A stretch of 64,000 nt of DNA from Anaerolineae bacterium. GTDB lineage: Bacteria > Chloroflexota > Anaerolineae > Aggregatilineales > Phototrophicaceae. Below are positions 3,123 through 9,190 of the stretch, piece after piece (position 1 is the first letter of the stretch; every line of letters starts with the position of its first letter). The stretch spans positions 744,001 to 808,000 of the forward strand of contig JALHQT010000001.1 of NCBI GenBank assembly GCA_022841825.1, read 5' to 3'. Below the pieces are notes generated by a model. The model ran no database searches, was not told where the DNA came from, and worked only from the letters and a program-made list of their open reading frames with translations. The position numbers were made by a program, and so were the translations under genes.

Positions 3123-3755
3123 TTAAAGGTCTGTCGCCCCAATTACCCCATTTTCATGGGTAGAGAGAATTGCCTCCGCGACCGAGCGAGGTGTTGCGGA
3201 ACCGGGCGGCAGCTTGAAGGGGACGTTCGCCCAGAAGCCTGTATCGACCGCGCCAGGGCGCACCAGGGTAAACTTGTGCTTGCGATTTTCCTTGGCGAGT
3301 ATCGCCATCATCGGTTGCAAAGCAGCCTTTGCCGCCGCGTATGCCCCAAAGCGCGGCAGACTGACTTTGTCCACCTGCGCCCCGATGGCGATGAAGTGAC
3401 CACCCTCCCGCAGCAGATTCAAGCTCGCTTTTGCGGCAAGAAACGCGCCGTTCAGATTGGCATCCATCACCGCCCGCCACTGTTCGGGGCTGCACTCGCC
3501 GATAGCTTGAGCCTGCATTAATCCCGCCGCGTAGACCACCAGATCGAGTTCATTCGCGGACTGCGCGACCGCCATTGCCACCGTGTCAAACGAGAACGGA
3601 TCGCCTGCCTCGAACGTAAGCCTGGTATCCACCCCCGCCGGGATACTGCCCTCGTGACGCGCAGCAGCATGGACACGCCAGCCACGTTCTTGCAGGAGTT
3701 GGGCGAGCGCAGACCCAATGCCGCCACTTGCGCCCCAGATGAGTGCATCTGCCAT
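3123..3755 (-). CDS. Short-chain dehydrogenase/reductase
   Basis: A 210-aa classical SDR. The N-terminal cofactor motif is IWGASGGIGSALA (TGxxxGxG type), followed by the NNAG-equivalent YAAGLMQA near residue 75 and an N-rich MDANLNGAF helix. The catalytic tyrosine-lysine pair is in FGAYAAAKAAL. VRPGAVDTGFW follows the active site as usual. The substrate is not deducible. It ends 2 nt before the next upstream gene's stop region begins (3758), so it is probably co-transcribed with the peroxiredoxin-like gene. Confidence 0.85.
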   Translation of the reverse strand: MADALIWGASGGIGSALAQLLQERGWRVHAAARHEGSIPAGVDTRLTFEAGDPFSFDTVAMAVAQSANELDLVVYAAGLMQAQAIGECSPEQWRAVMDANLNGAFLAAKASLNLLREGGHFIAIGAQVDKVSLPRFGAYAAAKAALQPMMAILAKENRKHKFTLVRPGAVDTGFWANVPFKLPPGSATPRSVAEAILSTHENGVIGATDL

Positions 3756-3757
3756 GG

Positions 3758-4315
3758 TTATGTGTTCGTCCTCATCCTGACTTGCGTCGCAGCTTCGAGA
3801 ATCACCTCATTTGAAGGATGATCGCTGACGTCCTTGCTATAGTACGCCCATGCGATATTGCCATCCCTGTCGACGATGAATGTCCCCGGCATCATCCGTA
3901 CATCGCCGTAAACCATCGCACCCTGATGCCCTTGCATCGCCGCCTTCGCGCCGTTCGCCACGACATTCAGAGACGCCAGTTGACCGAGCTTTCCCTGATT
4001 CAGCCCGTAAGTAAGATACGGCTCTGTCGTTTCATGGGTCAGGCACGTCAGGCTCGGCGCAAGCGAACCACAAAACTGCTGGTTATGCTTGGGCTGTCCC
4101 ATTGCGACCGCGATCATCTGAAGTGACGCGGCTTTGAACTCTTCGTTACCCTGCTCCAACTGAGCAAGCATCTGCCGACAGAAGATTCACCCAAAGTGAC
4201 GCAAAAACGTCACAATGGTAGGTCCTTGCTGCCACAGACTCGACAACACGACCGACTGCCCGGACTTATCCGTCAGGGTAAAGTCAGGCGCGGGCATTCC
4301 CACACTTAGCTGCAT
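3758..4315 (-). CDS. Peroxiredoxin-like (AhpC/TSA_2, SelU/PRXL2-type) protein with in-frame UGA; candidate selenoprotein
   Basis: Read from the ATG at 4315 (ribosome site GGAGG 5 nt upstream), the frame encodes MQLSVGMPAPDFTLTDKSG and then FLRHFG, a UGA at 4187-4189, and IFCRQMLAQL. It then stays open to 3758, about 185 residues if UGA is read through. Thioredoxin-fold peroxiredoxin-like proteins of this family have CxxC here (FLRxFGCxFCR), so the UGA replaces the first redox cysteine, giving UxxC. PRXL2/SelU relatives use selenocysteine at exactly this place in some eukaryotes. A hairpin follows the UGA (see next entry). Conventional gene calling would truncate the protein to the segment starting at 4171. 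The alternatives are a recent nonsense mutation or a sequence error, but no other damage is visible. Confidence 0.7.
4150..4189 (-). promoter_or_regulatory. SECIS-like hairpin directly after the UGA codon
   Basis: On the minus strand, 18 nt after the UGA (4187-4189), CTTGCTC (4168-4162) pairs with GAGCAGG (4156-4150). This gives a 7-bp stem with one G.U pair and an AGUUG loop. Bacterial SECIS elements are hairpins inside the coding region with a G/GU-containing apical loop roughly 16-37 nt after the UGA; here the loop starts 26 nt after it. The match is by structure and spacing only. Confidence 0.5.
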
Positions 4316-4363
4316 CCCATCCTCCATAACCTCATCAGCATACTACGACAGATCCATGCATCC

Positions 4364-5146
4364 TCACGCAGCCGCGCGTGCCGCCGAGTCGCGCCCCAGG
4401 AAAGTGCGCGCAGCGACCGCCAGCAGCCCCAGCGCCGCGACCAGCGCTGACGTCACGGCGATCATCTGGATATTCGGGTAGCGCAGGATGATGCCGACGA
4501 AAGCCCAAACAATGACCAGGAAGTACGGCAGATCGCGATTTAGATACGCAACAGTACCCGTGATAGCGCCCGCCACGACCAGCATGACAACGCCCCAGAT
4601 CTCCTGAGACAACCCAAGCCACAGTTCTCCGGCTCCCGGAAACAGCACATAGCTGGCGTTGGCGACATTCGCTACTGCCGCCCACGCAAAGTACACACTG
4701 AAGGGGACAAACACCGCCCAGATGTCGGCGGTCGTCGGCTTGACCTGCACGCGGCGGATGTTCACATAGATGATCCCAAGCGAGACGAGGAGCCAGACAA
4801 TCGGCACGGTGCTGACCGCGAACTGGAGGTTCTGGAACAGCAGCAGCCACAGCATGTTACCCAGGCTGCCGGCGACAAACCACCAGCCTACTGCGCGCAC
4901 GAACGGGTTACTGCGCTGGGCAGGCAGTGCCTGATAGATGGCGAAGGCGATCCAGCCGATGTAAATCACACCCCAGATGCTGAAAGTGATATTGGCTGGG
5001 AAAAACAGAATCGGCACACGGTTGGCAATATCGGCAGTAGTCGCCACGCCAATGGGCAGCGTCTGCGACAAGGCGTTGAACACGATCGTTACGACAGCAG
5101 CGATGATGTTCATGATGATAAGTAGTGTTGGGTTCTTCACGTCCAT
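4364..5146 (-). CDS. TspO/MBR-like tryptophan-rich membrane protein
   Basis: The product is about 260 aa with some seven hydrophobic segments. PANITFSIWGVIYIGWIAFA near the N-terminus and several conserved tryptophans (WAAVANVANASY, WLGLSQEIWGV) resemble the long tryptophan-rich sensory protein/TspO-related family. Members bind tetrapyrroles or sit in membranes with unclear roles. The frame opens at a GTG (5176) right after the hydrolase stop. The ATG at 5146 is preceded by AGGAAGGA and is preferred. Function beyond membrane location is not certain. Confidence 0.7.
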   Translation of the reverse strand: MDVKNPTLLIIMNIIAAVVTIVFNALSQTLPIGVATTADIANRVPILFFPANITFSIWGVIYIGWIAFAIYQALPAQRSNPFVRAVGWWFVAGSLGNMLWLLLFQNLQFAVSTVPIVWLLVSLGIIYVNIRRVQVKPTTADIWAVFVPFSVYFAWAAVANVANASYVLFPGAGELWLGLSQEIWGVVMLVVAGAITGTVAYLNRDLPYFLVIVWAFVGIILRYPNIQMIAVTSALVAALGLLAVAARTFLGRDSAARAAA

Positions 5147-5176
5147 TTCCTTCCTGAATTTGCCCGGAGCGCGCAC

Positions 5177-6148
5177 TCAACTTTGTGCAGCAGTATCCAG
5201 GTTGCTAATCCAATCCATCACATCCTGATTGAAGCGTTCGGGTGCCTCTTCCATTGGCAGATGACCCAGTGCCTCATAGATGACCAAGTCTGCGTTCGGC
5301 AGCGCAGCCTCCAATCGCTCTCCTGCGGCAAGCGGCACCCAGCTATCCGCAGCGCCCCAAATCAGCAGCGCAGGCATGGTGATTTCGGGCAGGCGCTCGA
5401 CCGGAAAGGTGTTGCGCGCCGAGTCGCGGATGATGCCAACGAACCCCTCATCCCAATTGCGAGTCGAAAGCACGCGTCCATAGCCTGCCTGGACTTCATC
5501 AGTAACCACGAAGTCGCTGCCATATGCCGAGCCAAGCAGCCCGTTGAAGCGTTCAGGCGTCAGCAGCAGCCGTGCGCCAATACGGAACCAGCGCGTGAAC
5601 GGCGGGAACATCAGGACGTCGCTCAGTCCACTGGGCGCGCCCCCCGCGCTGCCAACCGCCCCCGCGACATAAATCAGCCCATCGACCCTTTCAGGATAGT
5701 CGAGCGCAAAAAAGGAGATCACACCGCCCCCCGCACTGTGTCCCACCATGACGGCACTCTCGACGTTGAGCGCGTCCATAAGGCGCATCGCAAATTCTGC
5801 CTGTGCGGGCGCGGCAACGTCTGTCTCGACGCGCTTCTCGGTCAAGCCAAAGTTGGGTCGGTCATAGGCGATTACGCGATAGCCCGCGTCGGCGAGCGGT
5901 TGAATGTTGTCGCGCCACGAAACCGTCGAGCCGCCAAACCCGTGCAGCAGCATCAGAACCTGACCGTCCGCCGGTCCTGCTTCAATGTAATAGGTATCTA
6001 ACCCATCCACTTCGATAAAGCGCCCGTTTTCGTCCGCCAGCGTACGCGCATCCGCGCCAATTTCCGGCAGAGGAATCAGGAAAGGCAGGATAAAGATAAA
6101 GATGAATAGGAACAGCAGGATGCGCAGTACCCATCGTCCGAGTTTCAT
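5177..6148 (-). CDS. Membrane-anchored alpha/beta hydrolase
   Basis: 323 aa. A single N-terminal membrane helix (LRILLFLFIFIFILPFLIPL) is followed by the hydrolase fold. It has the oxyanion-hole sequence LLHGFGGSTVSW, the nucleophile elbow VGHSAGGG (Ser), the acid in WGAADSWVP and the histidine in ALGHLPMEEAP, so the triad is complete. Substrate unknown; homologues include esterases, haloalkane dehalogenase-like enzymes and C-C hydrolases. It is directly followed by the TspO-like gene. Confidence 0.85.
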   Translation of the reverse strand: MKLGRWVLRILLFLFIFIFILPFLIPLPEIGADARTLADENGRFIEVDGLDTYYIEAGPADGQVLMLLHGFGGSTVSWRDNIQPLADAGYRVIAYDRPNFGLTEKRVETDVAAPAQAEFAMRLMDALNVESAVMVGHSAGGGVISFFALDYPERVDGLIYVAGAVGSAGGAPSGLSDVLMFPPFTRWFRIGARLLLTPERFNGLLGSAYGSDFVVTDEVQAGYGRVLSTRNWDEGFVGIIRDSARNTFPVERLPEITMPALLIWGAADSWVPLAAGERLEAALPNADLVIYEALGHLPMEEAPERFNQDVMDWISNLDTAAQS

Positions 6149-6194: not shown

Positions 6195-7607
6195 TCAAGA
6201 GCGAACCGCCTGGAAAGCCGCCAGCGTTCGCTCACGCGCCAAGGCATGATCGATCATCGGGCGCGGGTAACCTCGCGGGGGAATCGGCATTTCCCAGGGA
6301 GCGTGCAGGTACTGCTCAGGCACGTCACGCAGTTCTGGTACGAAATGTCGAATGTAGCGCCCGTCCGGATCACACTTGCGCGACTGACTGACAGGATTGA
6401 AGATGCGGAAATAAGGCTGCGCATCCGTCCCCGTGCCCGCCGTCCACTGCCACCCACCGTTGTTTGCCGCCGGGTCGCCATCAATCAGATGACGCATGAA
6501 GTGTAGCTCGCCCAATCGCCAATCGAGGAGTAAATCCTTGGTGAGAAAACTGGCGACGATCATCCGTGCGCGGTTGTGCATCCACCCGGTTTGGACCAAC
6601 TGGCGCATCGCAGCATCCACGATGGGGTACCCAGTCATGCCTGCTGCCCACGCAGCAAACTCTTCCGGTGCATGTCGCCATTCCAGCGCATCATATTCGC
6701 TCCGAAAGCTGCGCGTGAGTACATGCGGGAAGTGATACAGGATATGGTTGTAGAATTCGCGCCAGACGAGTTCGCTGATCCACGTCTCGACCGATGCGCG
6801 CACCTGCGCGCCTGCTTCCGCCTGCTGCCCGATAGCCATTGCCATCTCGTACGCCTGCCGAATCGACAGCATCCCCAAGCGCAGATATGGGGAAAGTGCG
6901 GAGGTGCTCTCCGCCTGTTCAAGCCAGGGCTGCGCAAACACGAGATCGCGCCGCTCTTTATACTCGCCTAAGCTCGTCTGTGCGAAACGTTCCAGCCGAG
7001 CCATCGCTGCTGCCTCACCCGCTGCCGGAAGGGCAAGCAGGGAAACGGGCCCAAGTTCTCTCGCCTCAGGCAGCACACCTTGCGCGACTCCTCCCAGATC
7101 GTGGAAGCGCCCGATTGCAGTCCGCGGTAGCACCTTGGGCAGCTCAAGCCATCGGCGTTTGAAAGGCGTGAAGACCGTGAGCGGCTTTCCTTCACCTGTC
7201 ATGACCATCCCTGGCGGATGCATGAGCAGATCGTGTTCCGAACGCACGCGCTCAACACCCAACGCCTCTGCGACACGCCGATCTCGACTACGCGCATAAG
7301 GTGAATAATCGGCGTTGAAGTACAAAGCAGTGGCGGCGCTCTGTTCCATTAAGGCGCGCAGGACAGTCACCGGCTCGCCATGCCGGATGACCAACCCAGA
7401 GCCACGGCGCGCAAGTTCGGACTGGAGATGACGCAGCCCCGCCAGGAGAAAGGCGGTACGTGACGCGCTGGCGCGCTCGCCCCGGTAAATCGCTGGATCA
7501 AAGATGAAGACCGGGACGACGGGCAGCCCGCTTTCCAGCGCGGCATTCAGCGCGCTGTTATCGTGCAGGCGGAGGTCACGTCTGAACCAATGGATCACTG
7601 CGGTCAT
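6195..7607 (-). CDS. phrB: Deoxyribodipyrimidine photolyase (cryptochrome/photolyase family)
   Basis: 470 aa. The N-terminus IHWFRRDLRLHDN is the antenna-chromophore domain. The FAD-binding C-terminal half has LVWREFYNHILYHFPHV, W.AGMTGYPIVDAAMRQL, GWMHNRARMIVASFLTKDLL and DGDPAANNGGWQWTAGTGTDAQPYFRIFNP, the hallmark of class I CPD photolyases. It repairs UV pyrimidine dimers with blue light. The ATG at 7607 overlaps the stop of the preceding gene (ATGA), so it is translationally coupled to the CrtI-like oxidoreductase. An upstream in-frame start would only add basic residues. Confidence 0.95.
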   Translation of the reverse strand: MTAVIHWFRRDLRLHDNSALNAALESGLPVVPVFIFDPAIYRGERASASRTAFLLAGLRHLQSELARRGSGLVIRHGEPVTVLRALMEQSAATALYFNADYSPYARSRDRRVAEALGVERVRSEHDLLMHPPGMVMTGEGKPLTVFTPFKRRWLELPKVLPRTAIGRFHDLGGVAQGVLPEARELGPVSLLALPAAGEAAAMARLERFAQTSLGEYKERRDLVFAQPWLEQAESTSALSPYLRLGMLSIRQAYEMAMAIGQQAEAGAQVRASVETWISELVWREFYNHILYHFPHVLTRSFRSEYDALEWRHAPEEFAAWAAGMTGYPIVDAAMRQLVQTGWMHNRARMIVASFLTKDLLLDWRLGELHFMRHLIDGDPAANNGGWQWTAGTGTDAQPYFRIFNPVSQSRKCDPDGRYIRHFVPELRDVPEQYLHAPWEMPIPPRGYPRPMIDHALARERTLAAFQAVRS

Positions 7608-9190
7608 ACCGAAACATCCTCTGACTCTACGGCTGCGGTTTCTGCGCGCCACACTCGACCCTGGGTCTCAGGAGTATCTGACAGCGGCTCGCACGCCCTG
7701 GCAGCCCCGATCTGGGCGAGCACATCTTCAGCGACCCGGATCGCGCCCAGCGACACGCCTGCGGTGGATTGCCCCGGAAACACCGAGTCACCGACCAAAC
7801 GCACGTTGACGACACCAACGTGCGGCGAGCGAGCGCTGAACAGCGATCCCTGTGGGAAACCGCCCACCATGCCCATATGACGATCTGTGTAAAACTGGTA
7901 GGTGACCGGAGTTCCCGGCAGGTGCAGCGCGATGTGTCGGCGAAAGCCAGGCAGAATTCGCTCGACGAGTTTCAGCATTTTGTCGCCATACTGCGCTTTG
8001 CGCGCTGCGTATGCCTCTTGATCGCGCTCGTGCAGCGACCACCACTGCGTCACCTCGCTGTGCGTCGTGATCGTCACTGCCCGGTGACCCTCCGGTGCTC
8101 TGCTGCGATCCCATCGGGGTGACACCGACATAAAGATGCTTCTGCCCTCCCCAAGCGGCTGATCAATCGTCTCCAGCACCTGATGATGATCGGGAAACCC
8201 GTCTGGAAATGCGTCATCAGAGACGCCCAGATGCAGCACAAAAGCGCCCGATCCAAACCGCCGCTGGCGCACCTCGTTGCGGAGCGATGGGGAGCTTTGC
8301 TCGCCCAGCAAGTCGTCGAGCGACCAGGGGGTAACATTCGCGACCACAAAATCCGCGTCAAACCGCTCGGACTGCCGCCGATGCTCACATTCCACGCCAA
8401 CTGCGCGTCCATCCGCCATCAGGATTCTCTTGACCCGCCGGCGGAAGAGAACCTGACCACCAAACGCTTCGACGGCATCAACCAGCGTCTGCGCAAGACC
8501 TCCGATCCCCCCCTCGACGTGGTAGACCCCCTGACGCGCAAGGTCAAGCGCGGTCGCGCTGTAAACCGCGTTTGCAGCTCGACTGGTCGTCTGTGCCGCG
8601 ATCAGAAGCTGCGCGTCAATGAAACGCACGAAAGCAGGGTCTCCTGCCAGCCCGCGCAGCCGCAGCCATTGATGCGTCGTCATGAGAGCAAACGGCGCAA
8701 TGCGCAGATCCTGGGGGAAATTGCGCAGCACCGTCGAGGCAAGCCATCCCGCCTCGCGCACATCTGTGGGAGGCCATGGCAAGCCTTGCCCACTCATCCG
8801 CCAACACAAATCTGCGAGCGCGGATTGCTCATCCCAGAAGTCCGCCGAGCCGGGGAACTTGCTCAGGACGTCCTGGTTGTCGCGGGTCAGCGAAACGCTG
8901 CGGTCAGGCAAGTGGACGACCCATGCCGGGTCATGTACCCGGACTGGGAAGGAGATTCCCAACCGCTGTTCGACCAACGCATGAGGACCCCCGGGTTGGA
9001 AACCGCCTACAACTGTGGCACCGGCTTCAAATCGATAGCCTTTGTGAAAAAAAGTGCCAGCACAACCGCCTGGATAGGTCTGAGCTTCCAGCACTGTGAC
9101 GGCGTGTCCCGCCTGCGCCAAGAGTGCGGCAGCAGTCAATCCACCGATTCCAGCGCCGATCACTACGACTTGTTTCCGCCCGGATGTCAT
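7604..9190 (-). CDS. CrtI/CrtISO-like FAD-dependent carotenoid desaturase or isomerase
   Basis: 528 aa. The N-terminal dinucleotide motif VVVIGAGIGGLTAAALLAQAGH is followed by VLEAQTYPGGCAGTF, and GG.GGLAQTLVDAVEAFGGQV in the middle. The C-terminal FAD motif is RLVGDSVFPGQSTAGVSLGAIRVAEDV. This is the phytoene desaturase/carotenoid isomerase superfamily. Coupling to a photolyase (4-nt overlap) suggests a light-protection operon. No other carotenoid gene is in the window, so the exact substrate is open. Confidence 0.8.
   Translation of the reverse strand: MTSGRKQVVVIGAGIGGLTAAALLAQAGHAVTVLEAQTYPGGCAGTFFHKGYRFEAGATVVGGFQPGGPHALVEQRLGISFPVRVHDPAWVVHLPDRSVSLTRDNQDVLSKFPGSADFWDEQSALADLCWRMSGQGLPWPPTDVREAGWLASTVLRNFPQDLRIAPFALMTTHQWLRLRGLAGDPAFVRFIDAQLLIAAQTTSRAANAVYSATALDLARQGVYHVEGGIGGLAQTLVDAVEAFGGQVLFRRRVKRILMADGRAVGVECEHRRQSERFDADFVVANVTPWSLDDLLGEQSSPSLRNEVRQRRFGSGAFVLHLGVSDDAFPDGFPDHHQVLETIDQPLGEGRSIFMSVSPRWDRSRAPEGHRAVTITTHSEVTQWWSLHERDQEAYAARKAQYGDKMLKLVERILPGFRRHIALHLPGTPVTYQFYTDRHMGMVGGFPQGSLFSARSPHVGVVNVRLVGDSVFPGQSTAGVSLGAIRVAEDVLAQIGAARACEPLSDTPETQGRVWRAETAAVESEDVSV

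Follow-up and report, generated by a model that had tools for sequence, protein, structure and literature searches.

A predicted SelL-related UxxC selenoprotein with a conserved SECIS-like hairpin in an Anaerolineae genome

The locus and its coding sequence

The DNA analyzed here (the window) is a stretch of 64,000 nucleotides from an Anaerolineae bacterium (GenBank assembly GCA_022841825.1, contig JALHQT010000001.1, positions 744,001 to 808,000), for which an earlier sequence-only reading had proposed a candidate selenoprotein. The gene in question is on the minus strand, a point absent from that reading, and a plus-strand reading of 3758-4315 was rejected because its translation differs from the protein described. 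It belongs to a same-strand run of genes for a CrtD-like desaturase, a photolyase, an alpha/beta hydrolase, a Trp-rich membrane protein, the predicted selenoprotein and a short-chain dehydrogenase. The features are listed below; homologue counts refer to 25 related loci (16 UGA and 9 Cys forms) with at most about 1.5 kb of flank.

3123-3755, minus strand: short-chain dehydrogenase gene, two bases downstream of the predicted selenoprotein gene; homologue in 6 of 25 related loci
3758-4315, minus strand: coding sequence of a 185-residue SelL-related peroxiredoxin-like predicted selenoprotein, UGA read as Sec (translation, NF040769 and Pfam matches)
4150-4168, minus strand: SECIS-like hairpin CUUGCUC-AGUUG-GAGCAGG, starting 18 nt 3' of the UGA; 6 bp of the stem are conserved, with compensatory changes
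4178-4180, minus strand: Cys46 codon, second UxxC position (translation, alignment)
4187-4189, minus strand: the in-frame UGA (residue 43), which opens the UxxC redox motif (translation; TGA or TGT/TGC in homologues)
4321-4325, minus strand: Shine-Dalgarno-like GGAGG, five bases ahead of the ATG (sequence)
4364-5176, minus strand: upstream gene for a Trp-rich membrane protein, TspO-like by eye only; homologue in 11 of 25 related loci
5177-6148, minus strand: gene for an alpha/beta hydrolase, with homologues at 9 of 25 related loci (one a weak match)
6195-7652, minus strand: gene for a DNA photolyase, with homologues at 2 of 25 related loci
7604-9190, minus strand: gene for a CrtD-like carotenoid desaturase (score below the NCBIfam cut-off), with homologues at 3 of 25 related loci, of which two are short matches

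The coding sequence begins with ATG at 4315, and its TAA stop codon ends at 3758. Translation of the minus strand confirms two points of the sequence-only reading, namely that a UGA at 4187-4189 takes the place of the first redox cysteine (residue 43) and that the reading frame is otherwise intact. This is the one UGA in the frame, it falls within FLRHFG-U-IFCR, and the frame is open on either side of it.

Family assignment and predicted fold

The translated protein matched the NCBIfam model for SelL-related redox proteins, NF040769, over residues 8-175 with 140.1 bits (cut-off 120), and a six-frame search with the same model gave the gene 131.2 bits. It carries the motif by which the family is recognized, a Sec/Cys pair two residues apart after LRHxG (FLRHFG-U-IFC), and we saw no difference that would exclude the gene from membership. 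Three Pfam families scored over their cut-offs: AhpC-TSA (PF00578) and Redoxin scored higher, and AhpC-TSA_2 (PF13911) came third with 32.2 bits against a gathering score of 27, covering residues 55-161, downstream of the UxxC motif. An AlphaFold2 model built from a 43-row alignment, in which UGA was read as Cys and the window copy and locus L020 contribute an identical protein, had a mean pLDDT of 94.7 and a pTM of 0.91. When this model was compared with the PDB by Foldseek, a C44S/C47S structure of human prostamide/PGF synthase ranked first (E 6.1e-11, TM 0.72 by query), followed by peroxiredoxins. The human enzyme (PDB 9us9, 9usa), also known as PRXL2B, was also the best match in a sequence search of solved structures (E 1.2e-05), and its C44 and C47 align with residues 43 and 46; the human protein has Cys, and identity in the structural match is 22 %. 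The proposed kinship with PRXL2/SelU therefore holds, given that PF13911 is over its cut-off and the human synthase is the best solved match. Judged from sequence, SelL-related redox protein (NF040769) is the closer family name.

Conservation within the 43-row alignment also bears on how the locus is to be read. The list of open reading frames made with the standard code contains the downstream part alone, 3758-4171, a 137-residue frame without the active site, so an ordinary gene search cuts the gene down to this fragment. Its presence as a separate frame, with an ATG just past the UxxC motif, would suit a reading in which the short protein is the functional product and a short peptide encoded upstream terminates at the UGA. 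However, such a product would have neither the redox motif nor the initial strands seen in the model, and the only invariant columns of the alignment are R39, site 43 and C46, with P10, F37, L38, H40 and G42 nearly so; we consider this reading very unlikely.

Proteins of this kind are already in print, and the gene is a further member. The selenoprotein listings in two reviews (PMC13188914, PMC9312934) include, as predicted selenoproteins, a Prx-like thiol:disulfide oxidoreductase with PF00578 and UxxC or UxxU motifs, the same domain and motif as here. PMC13188914 names neither NF040769 nor SelL, and we liken its listing to this family by domain and motif. Prx-like UxxC families are also listed, and SelL named, in an ocean survey (PMC2398784). 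Titles and abstracts returned by our literature search on selenoproteins held none on the SelL-related family in this lineage, which does not show absence from print. What is new here is this member, a hairpin conserved within the order, repeated exchange of Sec and Cys, and the gene neighborhood.

The nearest known systems differ in their active sites. Classical peroxiredoxins (AhpE, Bcp) have the fold and PF00578 in common with the gene, but their active-site motif is PxxxTxxC/U (PMC13188914), whereas the protein has FLRHFG-U-xxC without PxxxT. SelL proper (UxxU) is alike in the position of the motif but needs two Sec residues. With Cys46 at the second position of the motif in this protein, a selenenylsulfide would be expected rather than the diselenide of SelL. 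Members of NF040769 with UxxC, UxxU and CxxC were all found within the same phylum.

Evidence for probable decoding of the UGA as selenocysteine

Relatives were collected by searching with the protein in 61 near genomes and 154 genomes of the order (30 with matches of E 1e-15 or better), and with NF040769 in 301 genomes of the phylum, among them our own (21 scored over the cut-off, and 30 loci were fetched). The site could be read as UGA in 33 fetched loci, two of them UxxU (L089, L096), and as Cys in 27; these counts cover fetched loci, and matches without a fetched locus are not included. Left out of the counts were L095 (the same gene as L020), L042 (site not covered), L124 from genome G394 (the contig ends within the gene and the match covers it only from residue 46 on, so the site is missing), the weak matches L035, L037, L041 and L046 (Cys at the site within other motifs, e.g. 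RFAACPYCN) and L038 (no match on realignment), and loci of other families (L036, L039, L040, L043-L045, L047-L049). A further 31 loci from a contig search were not used; they showed thioredoxin-, Bcp- or Tpx-like motifs by eye, and L072 aligned too little. Our own genome also has a distant Cys paralog (L128, G000:C2:903000-904600), with FRFAACPYCN where the gene has FLRHFGUIFCR.

The sequence-only reading had proposed aligning Cys-containing homologs and searching the genome for selA, selB, selD and tRNA-Sec. In the alignment, the Cys of the 27 Cys forms falls against the UGA. A single change from TGT or TGC to TGA in a gene that once had Cys, whether by nonsense mutation or assembly error, would suffice to produce the same codon, and the assembly is in 21 contigs. 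However, 16 close homologs from other genomes, at 40-55 % identity, have UGA at this very codon with the frame open on both sides, and the hairpin is kept in homologs, making a pseudogene or sequencing error extremely improbable. On a tree built from 31 Sec rows and 16 Cys rows (L089, L034 and 11 Cys forms were not among them), the label changed 9 times, with at least 8 of these changes forced by well-supported branches.

All parts of the machinery were detected in the 5.9-Mb genome (21 contigs, 95.67 % complete), and their absence, which would have spoken against a selenoprotein, was thus not observed. The genome has selA (544.8 bits, curated cut-off 267.9), selB (327.5 bits, cut-off 242.25), selD (371.5 bits, cut-off 125) and a tRNA-Sec of 74.7 bits, also called by ARAGORN as tRNA-SeC with anticodon tca. 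Its selD has an in-frame UGA of its own, in AGUAGKLG, so the predicted selenoprotein gene is probably not the only one in the genome. The best stem of the kind searched for was 5 bp in this selD, with no 6-bp stem.

We also examined the distribution of the machinery across the order. The 30 genomes with a good match (E 1e-15 or better) comprise 19 with the UGA form, 10 with the Cys form, and G394, whose gene is cut by the contig end. A tRNA-Sec of at least 60 bits, a line chosen after inspecting the scores, occurred in all 19 UGA-form genomes and in one of the 10 Cys-form genomes (G451), and also in G394. Two genomes with weaker matches fit this pattern as well, with 73 bits in G060 (L034, UGA) and a best score of 50.6 bits in G037 (L033, Cys). 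Matches of about 45-52 bits were seen in many genomes, including our own, with or without a strong match, and three genomes outside the set (G005, G015, G044) scored 56-60 bits. selA exceeded its cut-off in 16 of the 19 UGA-form genomes and in 2 of the 10 Cys-form genomes (G379, G451); an alternative table with G037 in and G451 out gives 1 of 10. The UGA-form genomes without selA over the cut-off were G001, G448 and G378 (97, 95 and 69 % complete), and selB was over its cut-off in G001 and G448, not in G378. On the tree, Sec form and selA went in the same direction in 2.7 of 5 independent pairs and in the opposite direction in none (p 0.25; five pairs cannot reach significance). The Cys-form genome G379 (L122) has selA and selB over the cut-offs and no tRNA-Sec match at E 1e-9; its assembly is 80 % complete.

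The sequence-only reading had also described a 7-bp stem-loop with an AGUUG loop, beginning 18 nt 3' of the UGA, and it is indeed present at 4168-4150. The bSECIS consensus calls for a loop of 3-14 nt in which one of the first two bases is G, located 16-37 nt from the UGA, and the AGUUG loop, which begins 25 nt after the UGA, conforms to it. As a single sequence the hairpin is unremarkable: three stretches folded no better than their shuffles (z-scores -0.18, -0.58 and -0.94), and stems of at least 7 bp at this spacing follow 17 of the 2416 TGA triplets on both strands of the window. We therefore relied on comparison of homologs, and it is conservation that lifts the hairpin above chance. The outermost (seventh) pair is present in this sequence alone among 15, leaving a conserved stem of 6 bp.

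Each relative was scored by its longest uninterrupted stem with a loop of 3-6 nt, a G in the first two loop bases and a loop start 24-26 nt after the codon, a position fixed after the hairpin of the window had been seen. Stems of at least 6 bp at this spacing occurred in 29 of 33 UGA forms versus none of 27 Cys forms. All 16 close UGA forms had such a stem, against 0.25 expected from synonymous-codon shuffles, as did 10 of the 13 distant ones, against 0.74 expected, although for several of the latter the stem was not rare among shuffles (p up to 0.31). The UGA forms L114, L127 and L089 had stems of 6, 7 and 7 bp, and the four that fell below 6 bp were L081, L083 and L034 (5 bp each) and L096 (3 bp). 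Among Cys forms the count was 0 of 16 (shuffles predict 0.27 for nine and 0.03 for seven) and 0 of a further 11. The synonymous shuffles covered 45 rows; L089, L114, L127, L034 and 11 Cys forms were scored separately, the last two groups later because the initial patterns had missed them. When loops of up to 14 nt and a wider spacing were allowed, two of the three Cys forms tried, L031 and L032, also reached at least 6 bp, and the third, L028, had none above 4 bp. Because UGA and Cys forms are not cleanly told apart in this way, the fixed-spacing counts were used.

The stem also covaries. In an alignment of the 16 close UGA forms, 15 of them distinct, 83.8 % of the cells are paired, compared to 32-47 % when the partner is slid by one to three columns. 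Of five measures, the covariation score, the cells paired and the cells changed on both sides were each reached by 0 of 500 shuffles; two were weaker, with pairs changed on both sides reached by 26 of 500 and further pair types by 13 of 500. One stem pair occurs as UA in seven sequences, AU in four, GU in three and UG in one. The relatedness of the sequences was handled by contrasting independent Sec/Cys pairs on the tree, and among 8 such pairs the hairpin accompanied Sec in an average of 7.5 and never ran counter to it (median sign-test p 0.0078).

Two observations concern stems elsewhere. The Cys form L028 (G042, without selA or a strong tRNA-Sec match) has a GCTTTCC/GGAAAGC stem, with a loop of 7 nt, close to where the hairpin would lie, and its sister L114 (G448) is a UGA form; the L028 stem may be a SECIS relic. 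Separately, related genomes contain a second peroxiredoxin-like family whose motif NRGFxU-P-x-CR includes an in-frame TGA (L036, L039, L040, L043, L044, L045, L048), and the stem TGGCGC-AGTT-GCGCCA was present at the same spacing in all seven loci read. From its sequence, this may be another selenoprotein family of the order. L047 and L049 have an in-frame TGA in other motifs, without this stem.

Bacterial UGA readthrough and reassignment do occur, so the codon might be decoded as an ordinary amino acid, through a reassigned code or leaky readthrough, instead of as Sec. However, 6 of 8 genes in the same cluster end in TGA, and UGA is thus a normal stop there. In addition, family members have a stop or Cys at the site in pattern-free alignments, which alone are independent on site identity since the pattern-based reading accepted only C, U, S and T, and tRNA-Sec and the hairpin accompany the UGA form. 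This alternative is therefore highly improbable.

Proposed mechanism and possible role

Taken together, the machinery, the aligned Cys homologs, the covarying hairpin and the way tRNA-Sec follows the UGA form support the original candidate. The codon, machinery, hairpin with its covariation, Sec/Cys exchange and predicted fold were computed here, and on this basis the gene very probably encodes a SelL-related peroxiredoxin-like UxxC selenoprotein in which UGA 43 is decoded as Sec through SelB and the hairpin, with Sec43 and Cys46 as the redox pair. For Sec insertion, catalytic cycle, substrate and reductant we draw on known Sec decoding and on CxxC redox enzymes. SelB with Sec-tRNA(Sec) would bind the hairpin just 3' of the UGA, and selenocysteine would be delivered at codon 43 in place of termination. 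In the model, residue 43 sits just ahead of the first active-site helix and could be the attacking selenolate. By analogy, it would reduce a peroxide or an oxidized thiol, Cys46 would resolve it as a selenenylsulfide, and a thioredoxin-type reductant would reset the pair.

The neighborhood is partly conserved. In addition to the genes listed above, the two that follow the short-chain dehydrogenase gene are taken, from their sequences alone, for nadC and nadA, and a nadC homolog was found in 1 of 25 related loci. The 22 distant loci gave a single weak match, to the short-chain dehydrogenase. The Trp-rich membrane protein (4364-5176; 11 Trp in 270 residues) had no Pfam, NCBIfam or PDB sequence match, and for this reason its TspO-like label is by eye. 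In Rhodobacter capsulatus, photo-oxidative stress is described as inducing a crtIB-tspO operon and raising photolyase transcripts, and singlet oxygen as able to yield endo- and hydroperoxides (PMC7074977). The presence of photolyase and carotenoid-desaturase genes hints at a role in photo-oxidative stress, a fair guess and no more. The nearest solved relative, human prostamide/PGF synthase, acts on a lipid endoperoxide, a type of product that singlet oxygen can yield. From this substrate and the neighboring genes one may speculate, with rather low confidence, that the protein is a Sec-dependent endoperoxide or hydroperoxide reductase in a photo-oxidative stress module.

The order holds UGA and Cys forms together and thus provides a good natural comparison for studying the loss of Sec, since the Cys forms have lost the hairpin from its place and 9 of the 10 Cys-form genomes are without a strong tRNA-Sec match. 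The neighborhood suggests a role that can be tested for a family which the two reviews cited above list only as a predicted redox protein. If the reductase reading is true, it would give the SelL-related family a concrete role.
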